35,370 nt of DNA, from positions 82,448-117,817 of the forward strand of contig NW_014577283.1 in assembly GCF_000485595.1 (NCBI RefSeq), given 5' to 3'. Below are positions 2,403 through 25,700 of the stretch, piece by piece. The number at the start of each line of letters is the position of its first letter. Position 1 is the stretch's first letter. Below the pieces are notes generated by a model. That model worked only from the letters and a program-made list of their open reading frames with translations. It was not told the DNA's origin and ran no database searches. The stretch is from Priapulus caudatus. Its lineage: Eukaryota; Priapulida; Priapulimorpha; Priapulimorphida; Priapulidae. Both the position numbers and the translations under genes were made by a program.

Positions 2403-2931
2403 CCTTGTTTACTACCGCCACACAAAGAAAAATCGGTGAGCTACCGATGTAACGAGTTTGCTCTTACACTTACACGGCGACTCTTTGTTTATTACCGCCA
2501 TACTAAGAAAAACCGACGAGCTACTGATGTAACGAGTTTGCTCTTACACTTGCACGGCGACTCTTTGTTTACTACCGCCACACAAAGAAAAATCGGCGAG
2601 CTACCGATGTAACGAGTTTGCTCTTACACTTACACGGCGACTCTTTGTTTACTACCGCCACACAAAGAAAAATCGGCGAGCTACCGATGTAACGAGTTTG
2701 CTCTTACACTTACACAGCGACTCTTTGTTTACTACCGCACACAAAGAAAAATCAGCGAGCTACCGATGTAATGAGTTTGCTCTTACACTTGCACGACGAC
2801 TCTTTGTTTACTACTGCACACAAAGAAAAATCGGCGAGCTACCGATGTAACGAGTTTACTCTTACACTTGCACGATGACTCTTTGTTTACTACCGCCACA
2901 CAAAGAAAAATCAGCGAGCTACGCACGTAAC
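2403..2931 (-). repeat. 79-bp tandem array ending at CNOT1 exon s donor
   Basis: Seven copies of a ~79-bp unit (each marked by CTTTGTTTACTACCGC) lie immediately downstream of the exon in the direction of transcription. The unit contains a copy of the last nine exon bases (ACTCGTTAC) and the first ~20 intron bases (GTAGCTCGCNGATTTTTC). In the repeat copies the donor GTGCGT is changed to ATCGGT, so the canonical GT is lost. Confidence 0.9.
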
Positions 2932-3051
2932 GAGTCCATGTTCAATGATGCCGCCGAACAAGCAGGCAGTGATCTGCAGCTCGCGATCCGGGTACTGAGG
3001 GAAGAAGCGATACTCCTCAAACAGGTTCCTCAGCATGCAGTTGTACACCTC
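2927..3051 (-). CDS. CNOT1: CNOT1 exon s (last exon in window)
   Basis: 125 nt, phase 0 to 2. It encodes [20 protein letters not shown], then [20 protein letters not shown], Val and two bases of Thr. It is almost identical to vertebrate CNOT1 ([18 protein letters not shown].. region). Acceptor ACTTGCAG, donor GTTAC/GTGCGT. The next expected exon, beginning (T)YMALGLALRYVLEAL, was not found in 1-2926. The last 9 exon bases are part of the repeat unit of the array at 2403-2931. Confidence 0.96.
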
Positions 3052-6000: not shown

Positions 6001-9000
6001 GATAACCTTTGACCCGGTAGACAGCTACAATGTATGCCTGTATGTCATACCGGCATGCCGGCACGCACGCACGCCAATCCGCTATCAGCAGCAGCTCCCT
6101 TGTGAGCCACAGCGCCTCGCCGTGAGCGCAAGCCCCGTGGACAGTGTGGTTAGTAGCTGCCTTTTGTTTGAAGTATAGGCGCTCTATGCGGTGAATTTAT
6201 TGGCCAGAGAATAGAGAATCGTGTCGTACGTTTCAGTCTGTATCTCCGGATTGCGGGTGTCTACGAGGAAATGATTTCGTACGATGATGGGCGAATGTAC
6301 TGTGTCCGATTTGAGCTCAAGTGGATGAGTTACGCGTAGAAATCGTAGGTATTATTAAGGCTAGTAAATGACGAATTTCCCTTGTTTATTGAAGTCACAC
6401 TCCTTCCCTTTATCTACTCCTGATACTTCTCATATCCGACATGAGGTTACAAACGCTCGTACTAAAGCTAAACAACTCACCCTTTCTACCATATTTCATA
6501 TCTGACATGAGGTTACAAACGCTCGTACTAAGCTAAAACTACTCACCCTTTCTACCATACTTCTCATATCTGACATGAGGTACAAACGCTCGTACTAAGC
6601 TAAACTACTTCACCTTTCTACCATACTTCTCATATCCGACATGAGGTTACAAACGCGCGTACTAAGCTAAACTACTCATCCTTTCTACCATACTTCTCAT
6701 ATCCGGACATTGAGGTTTAGAAACGCGCGTACTAAGCTAAACTACTCACCCTTTCTACCATACTTCTCATATCTGGACATGAGGTTACAAACGCTCGTTA
6801 CTAAGCTAAACTACTCACCCTTTCTACCATACTTCTCATATCTGACATGAGGTTACAAACGCGCGTACTAAGCTAAACTACTCACCCTTTCTACCATACT
6901 TCTCATATCTGACATGAGGTTACAAACGCTCGTACTAAGCTAAACTACTCATCCTTTCTACCATACTTCTCATATCTGACATGAGGTAACAAACGCACGT
7001 ACTAAGCTAAACTACTCACCCTTTTCTACCATACTTCTCATATCTGACATGAGGTTAGAAACGCCGCGTACTAAAGCTAAACTACCTCACCCTTTCTACC
7101 ATACTTCTCATATCCGACATTAGGTTACAAACGCTCGTACTAAGCTAAACTACTCGCCCTCTACCATACTTCTCATATCCGACATGAGGTTACAAACGCG
7201 CGTACTAAGCTAAACTACTCACCCTTTCTACCATACTTCTCATATCCGACATGAGGTTACAAACGCGCGTACTAAGCTAAACTACTCACCCTTTCTACCA
7301 TACTTCTCGTGTCTGACATGAGGTTACAAACGCGCGTTATAAAGCCTAAACTACTCATCCTTTCTTACCCATTACTCTCATATCCGACATGAGGTTACAA
7401 ACGCGCGTACTAAAGCTAAACTACTCATCCTTTCTACCATACTTCTCATATCCGACATGAGGTTACAAACGCTCGTACTAAGCTGAACTACTCACCCTCT
7501 CCTTCTTGTTGTTTGAATCCTTGAATTTCTTCAGCATCTCCAGTACCTCGTCGATGCTCAGTGCGGGCGGGTGGTTGTAGATGCGCTGGAAATAGCTGTT
7601 CGCTTCATCTTCCACCTCCTTAGAGAACGACTGAGTCATCTCCGGAAACATGGTCGCCATGTCTCCACCAACGCTCCCAACGCCACCCGTGGGCGTCACT
7701 AGAAAATGCATATGCAAAACACGTTGCTTTTATGCGGCTAGCGGTCACATTCACACTGCGAACTGGGATAGACGAATAAAACACGGACTAAACTCGTAAA
7801 TGGTGCAAGATGCACAGAGAGCCATGGACTATTACAGGTCAAACTAGAAATGGCAGTTGTCGCCAACTACATGTAGCACCCGTGATCTAGTATGAATGAA
7901 ATATCTCTGTAAGGACGTAGAAGGTAGGTAAAGTTAAATAAGTCACAAAGACAAAGGTTTGTTTACACAACTCATCTGCCTGAGATGTGCCAAGTATGTT
8001 AAAATTGGTTGCCTTAGGGGTTTTGGTACGCCGACACACCTTCTCCCCCAAGATGTGTAAGTATTACAAAGTTTGCTCGCGCTAGGTCAATTTAGGGCCG
8101 AGTTATAGAGCGGAAGGGAAATATGATAAAGTCAGTCAAGGTCAAATAAATTCCGCAAGTGATGTGGTTTTGATATGCGACACACATTCTACCCAAGATG
8201 TGTAAGTATACCAAGTTTGGTAGCACTAGGTCAATTAGGGGGCCGATTTATAGAGCGGAAGGGAAATATGATCAAGGTCAAGGTAAAAGGACAAAATAAA
8301 GGTCACAGTGACTGTTTTTGGTACGTGACCCACCTTCTCCCCAAGATGTGTAAGTATACACAAGTTTGGTGTAGCGGCTAGGTCAATTAGGGTCGAGTTA
8401 TAGAGCGGAAGGGGAAATATTGATCAAGGTCAAGGTAAAGTGTCAAATAAAGTGGCAGTGACCTTGGTTTTGGTACGCTGCTCTCCTTCTCCCCAAGATG
8501 TGTACGTATAACAAGTTTGGTAGCACTAGGTCAATTAGGGTCAAGTTATAGAGCAAGGGAAGGGCAAGTGTCTGCGGCGGCAGCTGGACAGACATGAAAC
8601 CATAGTATCTCCGACGACTTCGTCGCGGCGGATACAATTACAGTTGATCATGTCTTCATCTTGCACCCTAAGTCAATTTAACTTAATCGAGTCAGATTTG
8701 AATGTTACTGAATTGAGGAATTGGAATTTGAAAGGAATCAGTTTTACAATAAACTAGAAAGGGCAGTTGTCGCCAACTACATGTATCCCCCGTGTTCTCC
8801 CCAAGATGTGTAAGTATACGAAGTTTGGTCGCGCTAGGTCAATTAGGGGCCGAGTTATAGAGCAGAAAGAAATATAATAAAGGTCAAGGTCAAGGTCAAT
8901 GTCAAATAAAGGTTGCAGTGACCTGGTTTCAGTACGCGACACACCTTCTCCCCATGATGTGTAAAGTATACCAAGTTTGGTCGCGCTAGGTCAATTAGGG

Positions 9001-10431
9001 GGCCGAGTTATAGAGTGGAAGGGAAATATGAGCAAGGTCACGGCCAAGGTCAAATAAAAGCCGCCATTGACCTTGTTTTGGTACGTGACACACATTTTCC
9101 CCAAGATGTGTAAGTATACAAGTTTGGTAGCGCTAGGTCAATTAGGGCCGAGTTAGAGAGTGGAAGGGAAATATGATCGAGGTCAAAGTAAAGGTCAAAT
9201 AAGGTCACAGTGACCTGGTTTTGGTGCGCTGCTCACCTTCTTCCCCAAGATGTCTAAGTATACCAAGTTTGGTAGCGCTAGGTCAATTAGGGGGCGAGTT
9301 AGAGAGCAGAAGGGAAATATGATCAAGGTCAAGGTAAAGGTCAAATAAAGGTCGCAGTGACTGGTTTTGGTTACGCTGCTCACCTTCTCTCAAAGATGTG
9401 TAAGTATTACCAAGTTGTTAGCCCTAGGTCAAATTAGGGGCAGAGTTAGGAGAGCGGAAGGGAAATATGATCAAGGTCAAGGTAAAGGTCAAATAAAGGT
9501 CGCAGTGACCTGGTTTTGGTACTCTGCACACCTTTCTCCCCAAGATGTGTAAGTATACCAAGTTTGCGTCACGCTCGGTCAATTAGGGGTCGAGTTTATA
9601 AGAGCGGAAGGGAAATTCTCCTGCGCGGACGAGCGCGGCGGCGGCGGCTGGGAGGACATGAAACCATAGTATACCCGCCGACTTCGTCGCCGGGGGGGGG
9701 GGGGGGGTACAAATACTGTACACTAGTGACTATACCAGGAATACAAATATGAGTCCGCAGGCAAAAATGAGGGAGTCCGTTTTGTAACTATCCTGATTTG
9801 AACAATCTGCGTTGATAGGATCAGGGTTCATAATGACAGACTTTCAATCGTAAAGACCTTAATAATTATAAGTATATAATAATCAATCATAATTATTAAT
9901 AATTACAGACCTTCATAATTATCAACCACTCATAGGATAAAACGATAGGAAGAGGGAGCTACACACCTTCAATAATGATCACCATCTCATAGACATAGGA
10001 TAAAACAAGCACGACAGGAAGAGGGAGCTTCCGGTTTTGGTTTTACTTTCGTTCTCCCTTCCAGGCACCCGTCACTCCTACGCACTCATAAACACGCTCC
10101 ACACAGGGTATGACTTCGCGCCATAGACATGAAACAATCAATCGCCCGTACATCAATCGATACCGCTGCTGGCCATGACTCACGTACATCGTACGCACTA
10201 GCTGCAGGCGCGTTATACGCTGCCAGGCTATCTGTAACACCCGCGCTGTAAGTCTACTGGCAGGTACTGTTGAAGGTATAAGTTCAATTTTTACATTCTT
10301 ACCCCCCCCCCATTTTCTCAACGAATTTGAGGTTTACACAAAATCGACCCCTGGGACTGTTGAAATCGCGGATTTTCGCGCATCCGCGGCGAAATCTCAT
10401 CCCTGAGTCAGTTGTATGCGTGTGTCGTTGC

Positions 10432-10762: not shown

Positions 10763-13700
10763 TTGTCATATCACCATATACAGTGACTAGCAAGCAGACA
10801 ATTACTCATTAGCATGCTTACTACATCTGTATGATAGTGGCTATGTGAAAGATAACTACATACATTGTTGACAGTAACAGCTACAAATATGCCTCCATCC
10901 TACACTGACAAGCAGAAAATATTGTTGAAACTACTTATCCATATTGCAATGCTCTGCATCTAAATTAATAACAGCTACAAATATGCCTCCATTACACTGA
11001 CAAGCAGAAAATATTGTTGAAACTACTTATCCATATTGCAATGCTTTGCATCTAAATTAATAACAGCTACAAATATGCCTCCATTACACTGACAAGCAGG
11101 AAATATTGTTGAAACTACTTATCCATATTGCAATGCTTTGCATCTAAATTAAATGTTTGACATGGGAGGAAAATGGTTAATATTTTCATTGCGTATTGTG
11201 GCCATGTTAAAAAAAATATATATATATATATGAACAATCAGTAAAATGTATACTCACCATTGTAAACAGATTCTAAATGTTCGCATCACAGTTTCAAGTC
11301 ATCACAGTTAAAAAAATTAATGGATGACGTCATTTAATCACTACGACGCAATTTAAAAAGTCTCATGTTTTTTACAATGTCTTAACATTTCCTCGCATAA
11401 TCCGCTATGTTGATTAGGGTTAAACTAAAAGTCGGAGAGATTATCTTCAAGTCCAGAGTAAAGGTCAAAGACAGGTGCCAATGTGCAATTTCTCTCTCAG
11501 ACGTGTAAGTATACCAAGTGTCGTTGCGCAAGTAGGGGAAAATAAGGAAAATAAGAAATAAAGGTCGCAGTGATCTGGTTTTGGTATGCGACAGACCTTC
11601 TCCCCAAGATGTGTAAGTATACCAAGTTTGGTCGCGCTAGGTCAATTAGGGGCCGAGTTATAGAGCAGAAGGGAAATATGGTCAAGGTCAAATAAAGGTT
11701 GCAGTGACCTGGTTTTGATACGCGACACACCTTATTAGGAGCCGAGTTATAGAGCGGAAGGGAAATATGATCAAGGTAAAGGTCAAATAAAGGTAGCAGT
11801 GACCAGGATTTGGTACGCTGCGCACCTTCTCCCCAAGATGTGTAAGTATACCAAGTTTGGTAGCGCTAGGTCAATTAGGGGCCGAGTTATAGAGCAGAAG
11901 GGAAATATGATAAAGGTCAAGGTAAAGGTCAAATAAAGGTCGTAGTGACCTGGTTTTGGTACGCTGCGCACCTTCTCCCCAAGATGTGTAAGTAGACCAT
12001 GTTTGGTCACGCTAGGTCAATTAGGGGTCGAGTTATAGAGCGGAAGGAAAAGTGTCTGCGGCGGCGGCGGCGGCTGGACAGACATGAAACCATAGTATCA
12101 CCGCCGACTTCGTCGCGGGGTATAAAATTAACAGCTAATTACAGTCCGTTGCAAGATACACAGACTAACCACGGACTACTAACGAACTGCCTGTTAACAA
12201 TTATCCAATCTCGAGAGTCTGTGATTTCGACGTTCATAGTACGTGGCTTTCCTCACGACCTTGGCAGCCTCATACCAGCAGCTGGAGCTTTTAGAGCAGC
12301 TGAATGTGAAAAGGTGCTTGTACGCGGCTGCAACGCTCGCGGGAAAATCCACGTACCAAGAACGTAATAATCAGGAACTCTTGAGATTAGGCCATTCTTA
12401 ACAGGCAGCCCGTTAGCAGTCCCGGATTAGTCTGCGTCAGTCAGTGTATTTTGCAACAGACTAACGGTAATTTTGTCCATTATAGTCCGCGGCTCTCCGC
12501 GCATTTTGCACTGTTTACGTGTTCAGTCCGTGTTTTATCCGTTTAATCCAGTTCATAGTGTCGCCTGTCATTATTTCAACTTACTGTGAGCTAAGAAAGT
12601 TGGTGTGGAATAAGAACAGTGCATGAGTAATCTGTAATGAACTTCTAAGAGAGAATGATGCTACCTACCTCGCATGCCACCCACTCCTGCTGTAGGCGTA
12701 ACTGAAAAAGACGAACATCGTATAAATAACAGCGGCAGGGTGGCGTTGTTGGTGGACATTTTGTTCATGGACGGGAACAGACAGCAGCGACGAATTACAT
12801 ACAACGCTTCACCAATAACATGCCACGTATATAACCCGACGGCAAGACAACCAAGATACAAAGGTACAAACCAGGTCCTGGTTGGCGACCCCTCTCTGCA
12901 TTAGCTGCTTGCAAGAAGGCGGCTTTCGCACTGAGGCTATTCAGTCCGCCGGACATGATGCTGGTGCTACTCAGACCCGTTGCCAGTGACCCTGACGGGA
13001 AACCATCTGGAAAATGGTCGCAAGCTCTCACTCACATGCAGGAGTCGAACAAATCAATACACATGAAATGGGGCCATAAAGCAGAAATGTAGAAATCAGC
13101 TGAGCATTGCAGATGCCGCACCAATCTAGAAATGTGGCACGGCGATATAACTCACTTAACTTATCAAAATCTTCAGATTACGATCCGACTAAGAGAGCCG
13201 CATACCTTGTATCTGTGATCCGAGACTCGGGATGCCGGACATGGTAGACATTCCGGACATGGTAGACATTCCGGACATGGTGGACATTCCGGACATGGTG
13301 GACATTCCGGACATGGTCGACATTCCGGACATGGTGGACATTCCGGACAGAATGCTAGGCGACTGCAGGCTGGGGAAGGCAGATACCTTCCCCGGAGAGC
13401 CGGGTGTCGTTGTGAAGGAGGAGAGGCTGCTAGGGAACGGGGGAAGGCTGCTGCTCACTGCTGCCGACCCCCCGGACGCAGCTGCCGTCCCAACTCCCCC
13501 TCCCATCGTCAGAGATCCCATCGCACCACTTAGGCTAGCCAGCTGGTCGATCTGTGAAAGATTCAGTGGTCTAGTTCTCGAATGGAAATACGTGCATTGT
13601 CTATTCGTCAGTCAACTATTCGTCAGCACATGCACAGATAGGAGCAAAATTGTAAACAAACCATTTTTTTTTTAACTTTTTAATTACTTCTACTGAATAC

Positions 13701-16700
13701 TGAACTAAAATGTTTAAGTAGCAACTTTTAACACTGGTAATTAGTTATTAAATCTATTAAAGGTATACTTTTAGGTAAGTCGTTCCAGGGTTCATAGTAG
13801 TAAGACACATGTTGAAATAAGGACTTATAAGACCCTTTCTGGAGGCCAAAATAAGACTTTTTTACGCGATTTCTGATAGATCACCGACTATTAAAGTACA
13901 CTAATAATATTTATATACACAATTGCACAGCAACAACTCATCTGCCTGAGATGTGCAAGTATGTTAAAATTGGTTGCCTTAGGGGTTTTGGTACGCGACA
14001 CACCTTCTCCCCAAGATGTGTAAGTATACAAAGTTTGCTCGCGCTAGGTCAATTAGGGGCCGAGTTATAGAGCGGAAGGGAAATATGATAAAGGTCAGTC
14101 AAGGTCAAATAAATTCCGCAGTGATGTGGTTTTGATATGCGACACACATTCTACCCAAGATGTGTAAGTATACCAAGTTTGGTAGCACTAGGTCAATTAG
14201 GGGCCGATTTATAGAGCGGAAGGGAAATATGATCAAGGTCAAGGTAAAGGACAAATAAAGGTCACAGTGACCTGGTTTTGGTACGTGACCCACCTTCTCC
14301 CCAAGATGTGTAAGTATACCAAGTTTGGTAGCGCTAGGTCAATTAGGGGCCGAGTTATAGAGCGGAAGGGAAATATGATCAAGGTCAAGGTAAAGGTCAA
14401 ATAAAGGTCGCAGTGACCTGGTTTTGGTACGCTGCTCTCCTTCTCCCCAAGATGTGTACGTATAACAAGTTTGGTAGCACTAGGTCAATTAGGGGTCAAG
14501 TTATAGAGCGGAAGGGCAAGTGTCTGCGGCGGCAGCTGGACAGACATGAAACCATAGTATCTCCGACGACTTCGTCGCGGCGGATACAATTACAGTTGAT
14601 CATGTCTTCATCTTGCACCCTAAGTCAATTTAAACTTAATCGAGTCAGATTTGAATGTTACTGAATTGAGGAATTGGAATTTGAAAGGAATCAGTTTTAC
14701 AATAAACTAGAAAGGGCAGTTGTCGCCAACTACATGTATCCCCCGTGTTCTCCCCAAGATGTGTAAGTATACGAAGTTTGGTCGCGCTAGGTCAATTAGG
14801 GGCCGAGTTATAGAGCAGAAAGAAAATATAATAAAGGTCAAGGTCAAGGTCAATGTCAAATAAAGGTTGCAGTGACCTGGTTTCAGTACGCGACACACCT
14901 TCTCCCCATGATGTGTAAGTATACCAAGTTTGGTCGCGCTAGGTCAATTAGGGGCCGAGTTATAGAGTGGAAGGGAAATATGAGCAAGGTCACGGTCAAG
15001 GTCAAATAAAAGCCGCATTGACCTTGTTTTGGTACGTGACACACATTTTCCCCAAGATGTGTAAGTATACCAAGTTTGGTAGCGCTAGGTCAATTAGGGG
15101 CCGAGTTAGAGAGTGGAAGGGAAATATGATCGAGGTCAAAGTAAAGGTCAAATAAAGGTCACAGTGACCTGGTTTTGGTGCGCTGCTCACCTTCTCCCCA
15201 AGATGTCTAAGTATACCAAGTTTGGTAGCGCTAGGTCAATTAGGGGCCGAGTTAGAGAGCAGAAGGGAAATATGATCAAGGTCAAGGTAAAGGTCAAATA
15301 AAGGTCGCAGTGACCTGGTTTTGGTACGCTGCTCACCTTCTCTCAAAGATGTGTAAGTATACCAAGTTTGGTAGCCCTAGGTCAATTAGGGGCAGAGTTA
15401 GAGAGCAGAAGGGAAATATGATATAGGTCAAGGTAAAGGTCAAATAAAGGTCGCAGTGACCTGGTTTTGGTACGCTGCTCATGTTCTTTCCAAGATGTGC
15501 AAGTATACCAAGTTTGGTAGCGCTAGGTCAATTAGGGGCCAAGTTAGAGAGCAGAAGGGAAATATGATCAAGGTCAAGGTAAAGGTCGAATAAAGGTCGC
15601 AGTGACCTGATTTTGGTAAGCTGCTCACGTTCTCCCCAAGATGTGTAAGTATACCAAGTTTGGTAGCGCTAGATAAATTAGGGGCCGAGTTAGAGATCGG
15701 AAGGAAAATATGATCAAGGTCAAAGTAAAGGTCGAATAAAGGTCGCAGTGACCTGATTTTGGTAAGCTGCTCACGTTCTCCCCAAGATGTGTAAGNNNNN
15801 NNNNNCTTAGTAAGACACATAATAAGGACACATAATGTTGAAATAAGGACTTATAAGACCCGTTCTGGAGGCCAAAATAAGACTTTTTTACCGACTATTA
15901 AAGTACACTAATAATATTTATATACACAATTGCACAGCAGATTTAATTATTCCGTATTATATATACAACAATTCTTACTCTAAGTCGAGAACAGTAAGTC
16001 GAAAAATAAGGACTATTAAGTACTTTTCTAAGAATTCACCAAAAATAAGTACTAATAAAGGTCCTTATTTTATTTTTGGCAAAATAAGTACTTATAAGAC
16101 TTTGGAAGACCCGCTACGAACCCTGCTAACGCTAAAACATACCATTAATGGGGAATTTTATGGTGAATTTTAGCAAATAGAAACTTTGGAAATGGACCTA
16201 TTATCACCATTTAGCAATTACACATTTTTATCATCTATTTATTTTTCTACAAGTGATTGCCACTGTTCTCTAATAAGATGCTAAAAACAAAGGTGGCTGT
16301 GAAATATTGCGTAACAGTTACGTTTCTATACATTCTATACAACCTGTGACATGTGTGAATAACTTGAATTGATAGCATTCTTAGGGGAACTTACTCCACT
16401 CCCAATGGCTGTTGGATTGTATGCCGGCTCCAGTCCTCTAGAACTTTTGATGACACCAGGTGGTGGTTGTCGTGGCTTATTCAGCAGCATGTTACAGTTG
16501 GCCACCATCGTGAGAATCGCCTCCGACAACTCCTGACTGACGTTGCTAAATCGCAAAATATTAATCAAACCACCACCTTACAACTTATCAGGAGTTAATA
16601 AAGACAAATTTGTCTTTATTAACTCCTGAACTTATGACAGTATTGAATGGACCAAAGATTTCTGGTAATAAACCTTCCGTAAAAGGTTCAAAGAAATTGC

Positions 16701-19700
16701 GTGTGAACAAACTATATTTATTGCATGTTCTGCTAATCAGGTTACACATCATATTCTGCAAATACCTGTAGACATGCAAAATTTTCCTTAAAAAAACTTT
16801 TTTTACTAAAATCTTTTTCAACTAGACCATGTACATTAAATATGCAGGTTCGCGAATAGGGAAAACCCTTACCCTGCGCATGCCTGTAGACAAGCGAGCA
16901 TGGTTCCGAGCGTCTCGGGTGGAAGCTGAGCACTCTTAGGTAATGCATCCTCTTTCATCGGACCGCCCAAGATCGATGGGCAGCGGCGTTTCAGGAAAGC
17001 TACGCACGCCTCAATGAAGGGTTCCTGTGTAGCGCACGCAAGTACACAATGTGATTTAATACTCTTTCAGTTCTACGTCACTAATACTATAACACTACTA
17101 ATACTATAACAAAGCTCTCGTCTCTTTGTCAAGGGTAATAGTAAAGAACAAAGAGGCATATTTTATCACTGCATTGTTCGCCACATGGATCGCAACTAGG
17201 AGGCGTTTCTCTGCATGTGTATACCCTATTGTAGTTGCCCCGGCGACTCCATGCAACTGGTGTTCACTAATTACCTGGTGTTCACGCATTGACTGGTGTT
17301 CACGAATTACTTGGTGTTCACGCATTGACTGGTGTTCACTAATTACCGGGTGTTCACGCATTGACTGGTGTTCACAAATTACCTGATGTTCACGAATCTT
17401 GTCCGTCAGCCACTTGTCCAGCTTCAGATACTCCCGTCGGGAGGCAAGACATGCTAGATCGATCACAAATGCAAACGGGGTAGCATTCAGCAGCATCGAC
17501 AGTGCCTGAAACAAACACGCACTCGTCAGACTCTACCAAGAATACTCACAGCTTCAATACGTTCATAAAAGAATATACATAATGTATGGTCTCGATTAAA
17601 GAGACATCGTACAAACGATTGATAAACAAATCGTTGCTCACGAGCAAATCCAGTACTATGGCGTACATGTTAAATCTGTGAGGTGAAGAGAGTCGTCAAG
17701 CATTACCTTGAGATCTTGAGCCACGTCAAGTATCCGTGAAAGTCGTGACTGGTCGCCGTACCAGTACGGCATGTACCAGTCTGCCATCGCACGCATGATC
17801 AACGTCCTGATGGTGGTGGACTGTCCCTGTAACAACACATGAAACAATAAAAAACCAAACAATTTATTCAACCAAGCCTTGTATTAGTTGAAGAGCCAGA
17901 AAACTTCTAGAAAAAGCTTCTACTTCATGTTCACAATAGCAGTTTATATATAAAAATTAAATTTAAATTATAGTCGCTCTAACCTAGCATAAAGTGTATT
18001 CCTTTGCTAAGTTAAGGATACACTCAAGCTTTTGCACGGGTATTGCTCCAATGAGGAGTAAACGTTTATTGAGGAAGGAATCGAATCAATCACGTTTTAT
18101 TGATAGGTTATATCATTGCTGTATCGTGCCCTATTCTAAGACACGACACACAGCGGCCATAAACACTGATTTGTGTGACGATGACGTTATAACAAATTGG
18201 TCGAGTCATAAAACAACTTTGTCGGAACTGTAGCAACATTATAACGAAACAACGTTGTCTGGGGCAAGGTTAACTTGAGAATATCTATAAAACTTCAACG
18301 ATGAAGGTATGAGCAAAGTATAATTAAACATGAGCAATCACAACTGGACATTCATTACCTGACAGTGCCATGCGTAGTGTAGGATGATAGCTGAATTGGC
18401 ATGATTTCCGAGGAAGATTGTCATCAGGCTAGTGATGAGCTCCCGCCGTAGGTGGTTGATTGGTGGCTGGGTACATTAAAGATGCGCAATTTCAACAGCA
18501 GAATAGAATGAACACTACAACAGTTCAAGTAATATTGGAATAAAGGATAGCTCAACTTGACTGGGGTCAGCTACATCCAGAAATGAGTGAGGGAGAATAA
18601 ACCAATCCATACAAGGCTACCACTATAGCCCACCAAGTTTGCTACCGTGATTATTAAACATCATAATAAAAATGAATGTGTCAATGACACTATAGCTCAC
18701 CATGGGTGTGATAGAAGAGGGAGATGATATTTAAAATTTGGCAAGTGTTTCATTTACGACAGACCGAATTGTGATCAAATGTCCTTATTCCCTGTTTTAT
18801 GCTAATAGAAATTTCACTGTTTTGTTTCAGGGTTAATTTTGATGCGAAAATAAATGTTTCAGATCTGGAAGTCTGAAATCTGGGCGAGAGATGGCGCTAC
18901 GCCTAAATGCTCGCCATTTTGGTTTTCGATTATCGCGCAAAAAAAGCAATAAAATATTCCAGTCAAATTTCTGTAATGAAGAATCTAAAACACAATATTA
19001 CACGTAGGTATGATTAGGTAAGTAGGTAGGTAGGTAGGTAAATTTAACAAAATCGAATGAATCTAGATGGCCATTTTTATTTTTGCCAAAAAGTTGGCGT
19101 GGCTCGAAAGTAGGTCAACTGGCGTGCCCCAAAATAGGACGTTCACATCTCTCCCATAGGAGTAACAACTGTATGCAATTTGAAATCGTTGTTATCGTTG
19201 ACCGTAGCCGAATGTTGACGGACGGACGGACAGACGTACGATGGACGACGCCCCATGGCAATAGCTCATCTTGACTATGTCAAGGTGAGCTAATTAACAA
19301 AAATCATATAATGTATTTCAGGTGTTAAAATTTAGAAAAAAACTGCAACTTTGCTTTCAGAAACAAAGAGAGGCCAAACTACTTTTCTGTAGGAGCTCTA
19401 GGATATCCTGCAAAAATCATTAGCAAGGTGCACAAGAGCCATTTATACCCACAGGGTCATGTGCTACCATTCAGCAAGGTATGCCAATAGGAAGGTTAGA
19501 CAGCATAACAGCAAAACACCGAGTGAATAGATGGAAAAAAAATTATTTTCCACCAAAACAAACATAGTTACTCGCACTCTTTCGACAGCAGATATGCTTG
19601 TCCCGAAAAAATTGAAACTATCATTAATGACCCCTGCTGTATTGTATCAGAGACAGCAGTTACTTACACTGATCTGCAGAAGAGCAAGGACGAGAACGTC

Positions 19701-22700
19701 TGGACAGTGCTGTACCGGAAACTTAAACAGCTCTTGTGTATGAGCATAGTACAGATCAGACAGGAACAGCAGTGTCTCAACCATCTCCAGTGATTTCCTA
19801 CAAATACAGAGGTAATTAGCACAAAAAACAAACGTACACAAAAACGTGCACGACTCGTGCAAAACATGGCTCATCAATCCAGAACACGTCTACTTAAAAT
19901 GCTCCGTTACACGGTGTTACGCTGACTGTCATAATTTGTATTCTACAATAAACTTCTGCTCCTGTCGTTTACTTGCGATTTTGTTATTTACCAAGTAGCG
20001 ATATCTCTGTTGTCTTCATCTGGTGGGGCCTTCAGAATGTCGATGGCAACACAACGGCATGGATAGTCAGCAAAGCAGAACACATCAGAGTTCTTTAGTG
20101 CCTGTCAAACAATTACATACGATTAACACGTTTTACTGGCATTATACGATCCGTAAACATTGTATTAAGGCAATAACCATGGTAGAGGTGTAACGATAAA
20201 CTAGGCTCACGACACAACACGTATCTCCATACGTAGGTCATGATACGATACGTATCGCGATACACACACAGAAAGATAACATATAACCTAATAAAGATTA
20301 GTCTTCAAAGTCCAAGGGACTATATCGAATCAATGGACTATATCAAAGACGGAAAGAGACAAAGTTGATCAAATAGACAGATTAGATCACACCCCTAAAC
20401 CATGGTATTAGTACTATTCCTCTGACATCCACTTGTATAGTACACTCACACTGTCATCGCAATGTCACGACAACTCACTCACCTGTTGGAACCAGGAATG
20501 CTGTCCTTCAGTGTTCTTCCACTTGCGATAGAGCAGTTCTATTGGAAAAGCCATCTCCCTTAGACCACGGAATATCGCCTGGATGATGATCTTGAAGCCC
20601 TGCTTGTCCTTGATGGTGAAGCCAGGATGATCTAGCTCAAACACAACCTCCCGCCAGTTCATGTGAGGATTCTAGAGATGCAGGAACAATAACGATCTAT
20701 ACTCGTCGATGACAATGAAAACGATAAGATTAAGATAAGAATATTTAATTACTTCTATGGATTAAATGCGATTATTGGCTTCTGCATATAGCTATCTACT
20801 GTCTTTTTTGTTCAAAGACCAATTTTGCTCTAAATACAATTGTGAATCCCAACCGTTTATCCATTCTGTGAAGCTACATTCGCCATACCTAAAATTAATC
20901 AGTACTAACAAAAAATAAACAATAAAAAACATGGAATAAAAATTATATAGATTACGTAAATAATCACATACCGGTGTACATAACAACAACCAAATTAAAT
21001 TTAGATTATCGTTATAAAATAAGTATATATAAAGAATTATACATCTGTGTCCATAATAGAATTTAATAATTTGTAAATTTGCTATGCAGCATTCCGAATG
21101 AATCAATCCTAGCACCCCTGCGCTATTGGCAATCCTTCGATTCTACCGAACACACACACACACACACACACACTCTAGACCAGTGGCTCTTAACCTTATT
21201 TGAGTCATGGACCCCTTTGAGAATCCGGTGAAAGCTACGGTCCCCTCCCCAGAAAAATGCGCATAAGCAAATAAATACAAAATTTTGCATGTGCCTGGTT
21301 CATGCACCCCCTAAAGCCCATCCACGGACCCAAAACGGTCCATGGACCACAGGTTAACAACCCCTGATCTACAAGAACGACTTGACGTACGATTTCCTGC
21401 ACGACTTGCACAAACACATCGACGTTCCATGTTGTCATCAGCGCGCCCTCATGCTTCTCCTTCGTGTCGCTCCAGATGCCAGCGGATGACGTTACTGGCT
21501 GCACCGGCACCGGATCCTCTAGACCTGACGCAAGCAGAAAGCAACAGAGCCTCAGTAGAAGCACGTCGATCAGTGCTTACACGCATGCAGAAAGCAACAA
21601 AGCCTCAGTGGAAGCACGTCGATCACTGCTTACACGCACGCGACGATCAAGTGCCACGCGCAATAGTACACACTCGAAACTATTCGAGGTGAAAGTTACT
21701 GAATACGTCACGAATTTTCTATGGTGTTTATTTGTAAAATGTTTGTTTCAATTCTAAATGTATCTTCAAATTCTTACCTGATAAAATTGTTTTTCAACTA
21801 GTTAAAAATCCGAAAAAATCTGGACGATTCGATATATATTGATCACGACATTAAATGCTTGCTATTTGCTATCTATTAGTCATGAGTGTTTGTTCACATC
21901 GAACGGAATAGCAAAATAAGAAGTATAATGCAGCAATTTACACATAAAAAGTAAACAGGATCACTTACATTTTGTGAAAAAGTGGACATGATTTTTTTTA
22001 CTTTTACTATTTACGGTGACATAACCACTTTCAACGCCACGAGTTACCAGCTGCGCATTCTAATGTAAATGGCTCAGAGGCCTACGGGTGAGTACCAGAG
22101 TGAGTGCGAGCCATCATGGCAAGCACACGCGCGACCGACGCTGGCGTCACATCGTGTATTCCAAACTGAAGCAGACTCGCACGACATTCTTCGATGTTGG
22201 CTGTGAAATTGTAGCCGACTTCATGTATTAAATCTGCTAGGTTTCCATCCATCTGAAATACAGAGTACAACACGGTTTACGCCCGGTTGGCCTACTCGAA
22301 TTTCGCCTACGGCAAAATTCCCATTTCATCTATAGCAAAACTCCCAGTTGGCCTACACCCATTTCGCCTACTCCCAATTCGGCTACACTAAAAATCCACC
22401 TTATTTCAATTTTGTCTACCATCAGTTTGTCCACTAAATAATCATTTATAAATGTAATATATGGTTTGGATTAGCATACATATTTAGACTAGACAGAGTG
22501 GCATCCACACCAATTTCTACTGGTATTTGTTGTAATATCAATACTACGACGAAATATCACTATTGCCAATTCTGAGAGTAGATGAAATGGGAGTAGGCGA
22601 AATGGGAAGTAGGCGAAATGGGAAGTAGGCGAAATGGGAAGTAGGCGAAATGGGAGTAGGCGAAATGGGATGTTACCCTACCTACAACACAGGTATGTAC

Positions 22701-25700
22701 GTTACCTGTTTTAAACTGAATAAATACAGAGGAAATATCTACGACGAGGATTCACCTTCACCATGTTCAATGAACTGCATGTACAAAATATGCATTCTAG
22801 CAGCTTGTACCAATAAACTATCTGGGAATAGGTTTTTTTAATGACCAACACATTTCAAATTTAAGGAGAATAGATGTACTTCCAGGGCCTACCATTATTG
22901 CAGTACTGATTATATAACTATCCATGCATCTATAAACCTATGTACTTCATAGTGTAACTATGTAGTCCTAAATTATTCTTGCTCATCGCAGTTATCATAT
23001 TATTTACTACACGAGTTGCTCACCAGCGTTTTTGACATGCTTCCGCTCTCAGCCAGAATCTTGTCCACTTGCACGTCTAAACTGTCAGGGTACAACAATG
23101 GCGCAAGTACCACTGGCACCCTGTCCTTGGGGAAATCTGTAGAAAATAATAGGATAGGTGTTTTTTTACACGAAGACAAAAAGTGCATAAAAAATCACTC
23201 GTGAATCCTCCTTCTTGCAAATGCAACTTAATTTACCTAGTTCTCACGCGCAAACGCATGCTATAAACTTATTTTTAAACACTGGCTCCAAGAGCGATAA
23301 AGATGATCAGTAACAAATCAAATCTAGTCCACCTTTCCGAAGACTGAGGAGAAATGCTTCAATCTGGTCCAATCCTATTCCAAAATGGTCCTTCGATCCG
23401 TGGATTAAATTTTCGAGGATCAGGTGCAGCACCTCAATCGAAGTATCATTCAGACCTGATTCTTGGTTGTTACTAGAATCTGAAATGAATACACGATCCT
23501 TAATATAAATTTCTTAATACGTAATACTGAATATTTCCACCTTCAAGAAAGTGAAATTATATTTATATATTTTCATTTATATATATATTTATTATTATAT
23601 TTAATTCACATTTATTCAGCATGCAAAGTTAAGCTTCTTTGTTTGGTAATCATACGGTTTACTACATTCAGTAATCTGGTAGTCTGTGAGCAATTCTGTT
23701 AGTTCCGATTTTTAGTATTCCGTGAGTTTTGCCAAAACGTGTGAAGTCCGTCTACGTCATAGCATAAGCAACAACCATCATTAGATAATAGATTAAAAAA
23801 TCCCTGTATCTTCATCTAATCTGCACTGCACTTGTGATTACCCAGACGATAGAGATCCAGAGATCATCCAGAGAAATAGAAAAACAAATGAAAAATGACA
23901 AATCTATGTAATGCAATACCTGAATTGACAAATGACCTCAAAAGATCCGGTAACTTCTGTTTGACGTATTGTAGAGCGTGGTTTCGCGTTTCCGGGTTAG
24001 TTGAATTGAGCAGTCCCAAGCCGAAGGCTACCTCTTGAACACGCGATAGGCTTAGTGTCTTGCTCAGATAATAGAAGAGCTGCGGCGATGGCTTCAGTGA
24101 CTGCAAGGAAACGTTCTTATAATAATTAACGTTTTCAATTCAAATGGATACTCATAGATTTGGTAGCTCTCACGAATATTTACTAACTGTCATGAAGTTT
24201 AATATTAGGGTAGACAATTCTAATTCAGAAGAAATTTTAGTTATTTGAGACCTCCATCGGGGTTTTTAAAGCCTAGGTTAAAACTTGGTTTTCTGCCTTA
24301 TGCAGATACACAATTTGGTAGCTCTCACGAATATTTACTAACTGTCATGAAGTTTAATATTAGGGTAGACAATTCTAATTCAGAAGAAATTTTAGTTATT
24401 TGAGACCTCCATCGGGGTTTTTAAAGCCTAGGTTAAAACTTGGTTTTCTGCCTTATGCAGATACACAATTTGGTAGCTCTCACGAATATTTACTAACTGT
24501 CATGAAGTTTAATATTAGGGTAGACAATTCTAATTCAGAAGAAATTTTAGTTATTTGAGACCTCCATCGGGGTTTTTAAAGCCTAGGTTAAAACTTGGTT
24601 TTCTGCCTTATGCAGATACACAATTTGGTTATGCATGTCAGCATTTACATGTTTGGTTTAAACTGATTATTACGAGATTTTTACCCAGAAAAACTATATA
24701 AGAAAGAAAAAGAATATAGCTGAATATAGTCTCACCTGACAGTGGAAATATCACTGATTACACCCACATTAAAAACACTAAGATTTTATGCAGTTATAGC
24801 ACAGAAAAATGGATTTGACCACATCATAACAGCAATAAATTTTATCGTATGCCGAGTCCGACTCACGAAATCACAAATAGCGCCTTCAAAACAAGTGCAC
24901 ATAATTAAAACAAAGGAGCATGTATTTGTGTGTGCATGTAAATCAAACAACCATGGAAGCAGTAGGGCGTGTACTTTGGAGTTCAGAGAAGAAGAGAAGA
25001 CGTTTTTGGTCAAAGCAGAGCTATGTGAGTTGGAAAGGGTTCCGAATGAGCCTTGGCGATCAGTTTCTTTACCGAGCATCAGTATTACACTCCCCGTACG
25101 CTAGTCTGAACCTCTGCGTTTACACTCGGACCAAAACTGCCGCGGTGCGACTATTTTATACTGCACCCGGGTCGATGTCTCGCGCTCACCGCGAGAAAGT
25201 CCGAGAGATGGTAACAGAAACGAAATCAGTAAACAAAAGTTGTACTTGTAATCGTGCATATTATGGTGAATACGAATGTTCTAAGAAATTTTATCGTTAC
25301 TCTAGACAATTGCTGTTACTCAAGCAAGAACGGTAAGTATCATGAACAGTGGGGAAAACACTGGAAAACTCTCGTAACAATTACTTTAAACATAGTAGTT
25401 TTGTACAAGAAACAACCTGTTATACGAACCTGTATTGAGTTAAATCATAGTAAATATATATATAACAAAATACTCACTTTTTGATGTTGTAGTGGGTTAT
25501 CAACAGCAAAGCACAAATTGGTCAAAAAATTTGGCTTGGATATCAGCGATGCGCACTCATGGATTAGATACTGTACCTGAAGAAAACACAACCATAAAAA
25601 TTTCAGGAAAGCTATATTTTTAGACTTTCAATCTATTTATGCTACCTTGCATACACATACTAACAAGAGCTAATAAATACCTAGAGTGTACAACGAAAAA

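Follow-up and report, generated by a model that had tools for sequence, protein, structure and literature searches.

A minisatellite spanning an exon/intron junction of CNOT1 could lengthen the protein but is more probably spliced out unnoticed

Four copies of the 5' splice-site hexamer GTAATT stand exactly 36 nt apart at the end of a CNOT1 exon, on the minus strand of the 35,370-nt stretch of DNA analysed here (the window), and the question that they raise is whether a repeat that overlaps a splice junction alters the protein or is removed with the intron. The identity of the gene is clear, as the two exons at the array match three CNOT1 chains of solved structures (E 5e-47 to 2e-46) and two further exons in the window match CNOT1 structure chains at E 4.9e-20 and 4.2e-22. 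By homology and sequence, the exon ending in TDKIREHQ (17383..17505, minus strand) stops at an ancestral phase-0 junction, and the next exon (16873..17024, minus strand) begins with EPFIEAC at 17024. The intron between them (17025..17382, minus strand) measures 358 nt from the first of the four donors (donor 1) and 250 nt from the last (donor 4). On a limited look at the CNOT1 literature, we know of no junction minisatellite described in this gene.

Tandem Repeats Finder reports an array at 17256-17397 on the minus strand that overlaps the end of the exon (17505-17383) and is far beyond chance as a repeat. Two periods are found, one of 36 nt (17256-17394, 3.9 copies, 92% matches) and one of 18 nt (17257-17397, 7.8 copies, 77% matches). 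The original prediction had described a 36-nt repeat grown from the junction itself; the 36-nt period is present, but the basic unit is 18 nt and 36 nt is a higher-order unit in which every second 18-nt unit is without a donor. Odd units start with GTAATT, and even units start with TCAATG in its place (17287..17292, 17364-17359 and 17328-17323, minus strand) and hence carry no GT donor. Aligned in register with the donor, the last 18 nt of the exon share 14 of 18 bases with unit 5 and 12 or 13 with the other units, so that the exon end belongs to the repeat and growth from the junction is supported. The element is thus a junction-spanning minisatellite (17257..17397, minus strand) that starts within the exon. 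The assembly searched comprises 385 Mb in 2952 contigs, with the window on a contig of 483 kb; in a match search that may skip very common words, the array sequence found one place, with or without its flanks, no second haplotype of the array was seen, and a dispersed satellite family was rejected on that single match. An RNA structure spanning the array was likewise rejected, the fold having a z-score of +1.4 with 188 of 200 shuffles folding at least as well.

Conservation of the exon end indicates which of the four donors is old. In one set of homologues, a junction pattern fitted 88 of the 120 proteins listed (of 261 found) and 32 did not fit; the residue after REH (or REN) in the fitted sequences was G in 73, R in 7, Q in 3 and another residue in 5, and the next residue was valine in 49 of the 88, as expected when an open reading frame enters an intron starting GTN. 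Full-length homologues numbered 2193, many of them isoforms or from close species, and in 119 of the 120 listed a single G separates REH from the next helix; the one that the pattern missed, from Lineus, also reads REHGEPF. None of these 120 carries an insertion at the junction. Donor 1 is taken as the old site because homologues end this exon there, and the first copy of the array would therefore, judged by exon-end conservation in the listed homologues, be the genuine splice site.

The four donors were originally placed at 17383, 17347, 17311 and 17275 and treated as equivalent, each behind the same exon-end copy, GTGAACAYCAG. The sites are real, but those numbers are the last exonic bases, and the GT starts at 17382, 17346, 17310 and 17274; the exon-end copy is exact in copies 1 and 4 but ends CCG in copy 2 and CAA in copy 3. 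Scored with an approximate donor matrix and with a U1 duplex energy computed alongside it, the four do not behave as equals. Donor 1 (CAG|GTAATT, 17377..17382), whose position is conserved in homologues, scores 9.1 with a duplex energy of -8.2 kcal/mol, and donor 4 (CAG|GTAATT, 17269..17274), identical to it at the nine consensus positions, scores 9.1 with -8.4 kcal/mol. Donor 2 (CCG|GTAATT, 17341..17346) is weakened at -2 (6.9, -5.3 kcal/mol) and donor 3 (CAA|GTAATT, 17305..17310) at -1 (5.8, -3.0 kcal/mol); all four lie on the minus strand. Of the 16 other CNOT1 donors placed in the window, ten were scored and span 4.9-12.1 on the matrix and -5.3 to -12.4 kcal/mol for the U1 duplex. On the matrix all four array donors fall inside this spread; in duplex energy donor 2 equals the weakest of the ten, and donor 3 pairs less stably than any of them. 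The realistic choice for the splicing machinery would consequently be 0 or +36 residues, with donor 4 as the apparent sole equal-strength competitor of donor 1 and an isoform of CNOT1 longer by 36 residues a possible product.

Translation could run through every copy. As originally claimed, the frame is open from the exon through the whole array and onward, closing only at a TAG at 17104..17106 (minus strand), 92 codons beyond donor 1, and all four donors preserve it, with predicted inserts of 0, 12, 24 and 36 residues for donors 1 to 4. An open frame is nevertheless a weak sign of use. Bases derived from the exon inherit its frame, unit lengths of 18 and 36 nt are divisible by three, and among the 197 proteins listed there are six, predicted ORFs of other genomes, that also cross the junction in frame from REHG to QEPFIQAC. 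Between the 36-nt copies there are, counted by eye, five single-base differences, of which four alter a residue (R/C, R/S twice, Q/P) and one is silent. Insertion into a conserved HEAT region had been proposed, and the region is right; the point of insertion is, in the model, a turn between two helices. In a structure model of a mammalian CNOT1 homologue, built on 14 sequences with a mean pLDDT of 70 (74-87 per ten-residue block near the junction), helices occupy residues 59-70 and 72-85 and the junction falls at residue 71. An insert would thus be placed where one HEAT helix turns into the next, which may be a tolerant site for it.

The reading that we prefer, with a probability of roughly 0.7, is that of a neutral minisatellite seeded at the junction and tolerated there, with donor 1 remaining the main site. 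We infer the duplication route, the order of events, the neutrality and all splicing outcomes as follows. Slippage may have occurred between two ATT triplets lying 15 nt before and 4 nt after the exon end, the proposed ends of the first duplication being the pair 18 nt apart at 17397-17395 in the exon and 17379-17377 in the intron (+4 to +6; 17377..17397, minus strand). The first product would have been a second copy of an 18-nt segment that holds the exon end together with its donor. In one of the copies GTAATT would then have become TCAATG, with loss of the GT, and the 36-nt dimer so formed would have been amplified. As the first copy retains the whole original exon and its donor, the extra copies would fall in the intron and hence be tolerated, while low-level use of donor 4 may add 36 residues at the helix turn. 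That donor 1 is the main site is nonetheless insecure, since donor 4 reproduces it together with its exon-side context and, of two equal donors, the downstream one can prevail.

A rival reading has donors 1 and 4 compete at a level that matters, with rare use of 2 and 3, so that CNOT1 is made with 0 and 36 (or 12 and 24) extra residues. The strength of donor 4, the open frame and the predicted position of the insert at a helix turn would all permit this, and there are human parallels: by published accounts, IFI6 employs two downstream repeat units as donors and so makes three mRNAs (PMC4526556), and ABCA7 retains one unit of its repeat at 2 +/- 1% in the tissues measured (PMC5954066). Against these stand the absence of an insertion from the 120 listed full-length homologues, the status of the six junction-crossing ORFs as gene predictions and not transcripts, and the copy differences, four of five of which change a residue with no sign of constraint at the protein level. 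The repeats at exon/intron boundaries in amphioxus, known as mirages, are moreover reported not to interfere with regular splicing (PMC3087553, PMC3902484). Competition at a level that matters is, on this sequence evidence, doubtful, and the repeat, which could lengthen CNOT1, is more probably spliced out unnoticed.

A further reading is that an ordinary intronic minisatellite, in a gene rich in repeats, happens to have reached the exon, and it bears on whether contact with donors is special in this gene. The gene was mapped as 34 CNOT1 exon pieces, picked by eye against human CNOT1 over the window and its contig flanks, with part of the gene reading N; the two exons at the array and two others were checked one by one, and the joined pieces as a whole. 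This placed 29 donors, with five of the 34 exon ends left out because their donor could not be located, and 30 acceptors, several only to within a few bases. At four of the 29 donors a tandem array starts from the exon end. Besides the 18/36-nt array, a 67-nt unit repeated 15.9 times (6423..7498, minus strand) begins at the donor of the exon ending SNNKKER|GTGAGT; an 80-nt unit repeated 6.7 times (2405..2935, minus strand) begins in the last bases of the exon ending GIIEHGLVT, an exon end placed to within about 2 nt; and an 87-nt unit repeated 3.2 times lies outside the window at contig positions 65241-65528, running down from 65528 at the donor AAG|GTAGTT. Nine GTGAGT sites, the genuine donor included, occur in the 67-nt array. 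The exon side is clearly shared in the 18/36-nt and 80-nt arrays, and only the intron side in the 67-nt and 87-nt arrays, the latter two counting against seeding at the junction. In the 67-, 80- and 87-nt arrays, translation straight past the donor would reach an in-frame stop within 4 to 10 codons, which fits arrays that are normally removed by splicing. One of the 30 acceptors examined touches an array, of 53 nt x 2.1, a duplication at window 21528-21638 that ends at or beside the 3' splice site.

Other repeats lie elsewhere in the gene. An 18-nt repeat of 6.4 copies at window 13235-13349 sits within a CNOT1 coding exon about 29 nt before its donor and encodes (MSTMSG)n; a satellite of about 146 nt occurs at three places in CNOT1 introns (window 8795-9616, 11645-12051 and 13984-15795); and a 155-nt unit in three copies with 100% matches (window 24158-24629) precedes a CNOT1 exon by about 57 nt. 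In the 180 kb further along the contig, 80,516 of 180,000 bases are N and few genes were recognised by eye in ORF lists.

Array edges coincide with donors more often than expected (4 times, where 0.2-0.6 would be expected; P 0.003 or less for every one of the four score thresholds, with 3001 draws each), an enrichment that is partly automatic, as a conserved exon halts any array at its edge. Arrays occupy 15-17% of the mapped gene, and the number of donors inside them, 4 of 29, is close to the 4.7-5.5 expected from random intron positions (P 0.7-0.8), which favours chance contact. A local-copy score taken over all 29 placed donors is high at the four array donors and weaker at one more, and 8 to 14% of random gene positions reach the scores of those four; local copies equal to those at the 80-nt array donor are found at about 12% of random positions and equal to those at the 18/36-nt array donor at about 8%. 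Because some 12% of positions match the 80-nt array donor, this score alone shows nothing special about donors. These random-position controls add weight to chance contact and slightly lower that of neutral seeding, yet contact by accident would not account for a unit that holds exon-derived bases in register with the donor, nor is it favoured by an array sequence with no other match in the assembly, and we consider it unlikely.

Three other possibilities may be treated more briefly. The most elaborate would have donors 1 to 4 all used in one animal, giving 0, 12, 24 or 36 residues at the HEAT-helix turn in a ratio set by copy number, so that the repeat acted as a length dial and different alleles made different CCR4-NOT scaffolds, and would also have donor-seeded minisatellites recur along genes outside the cephalochordates; the conjunction appears distinctly improbable from the sequence at hand. 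Less probable again is a permanent lengthening of the exon, in which donor 4 would be constitutive and the 36 residues part of the normal protein of the species. In its favour, donor 4 equals donor 1 in strength and lies closer to the 3' splice site, and the frame would allow it, but the conserved exon end is donor 1, codon-level constraint is not seen, and donor 1 is intact though it would have been free to decay after a full switch; we give this very little credence. Finally, the number of copies or the layout of the array might have been misassembled, as this is a draft assembly with unread stretches and short arrays are easily collapsed or expanded; this is extremely improbable, since several bases distinguish the copies, the array has a single matched place and further arrays stand at donors of the same gene.

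The array belongs to a class of repeats that has been met before. Mirages were described in amphioxus as minisatellite-like tandem repeats across exon/intron boundaries in Adh3, the globins BflGb6 and BflGb9, troponin C and PGBD5 (PMC3087553, PMC3902484), the last two genes being additions of the later-numbered report (PMC3902484), and were proposed as a path to new introns (PMC3087553). Like the present array, mirages span exon/intron boundaries; they are found in several genes of one lineage, many of the repeats having AG/GT signals, with units of 10 to about 160 bp. The present array differs in its gene, CNOT1, in an 18/36-nt unit that leaves the frame open and in its host, which is not close to Branchiostoma lanceolatum. 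Over 1475 gap-free columns of joined exon pieces, the host protein is 68.0% identical to that of B. lanceolatum, 68.4% to Ptychodera, 69.7% to Lineus, 68.8% to Owenia, 68.1% to Ridgeia and 67.2-67.9% to three vertebrates, which are 93.6-95.2% identical among themselves, and in a nine-sequence CNOT1 tree the host falls outside the deuterostomes sampled. Since its CNOT1 is no closer to B. lanceolatum than to other animals, the host is presumably no cephalochordate; an amphioxus mirage in the strict sense, belonging to a cephalochordate genome, was accordingly rejected on the 68.0% identity, no closer than that to other phyla. Mirages in that sense also show length and somatic instability, and the present array was seen as one copy in one assembly. 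Repeats of this kind thus also occur beyond the cephalochordates, for which the term mirage was introduced, although human cases were already known.

The minisatellite of human IFI6 (6-16, G1P3) has a repeat unit of 12 bp, in frame, and was reportedly described by Turri, Cuin and Porter in 1995 (NAR 23:1854). It is alike in that a minisatellite at an exon end supplies several splice donors, and unlike in that IFI6 is a human interferon-induced gene in which downstream donor use is reported as demonstrated (PMC4526556), whereas the CNOT1 array is known from its sequence. In the 25-bp VNTR of human ABCA7, the first GT of the array is reported as the canonical donor of exon 18 (PMC5954066), and there too the first GT is genuine, but that unit breaks the frame, is present in twelve or more copies and starts at the first intron base. 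The 31-bp VNTR of human CBS, named c.1444_1467+7 (PMC2630376), similarly has a unit that, judged by this name, runs from an exon end into the intron as far as its seventh base; unlike the CNOT1 array it is reported as polymorphic, with 16-21 copies, and its unit breaks the frame. Internal tandem repeats at human exon-intron boundaries have also been reported, with alternative transcripts that retain the repeat (PMC2812944). What joins the CNOT1 array to IFI6, ABCA7, CBS and the mirages is a set of tandem units that contain the exon/intron boundary and a splice signal, so that the kind is already described and this array is another case of it. It adds an open-frame example, in the gene of the CCR4-NOT scaffold, to a little-known class of repeats born on splice sites; its donors 1 and 4 amount to a natural duplicate-donor experiment, and the several donor arrays in CNOT1 (67, 80 and 87 nt as well as 18/36 nt) make the gene a place in which to test the proposal that mirages give rise to new introns.
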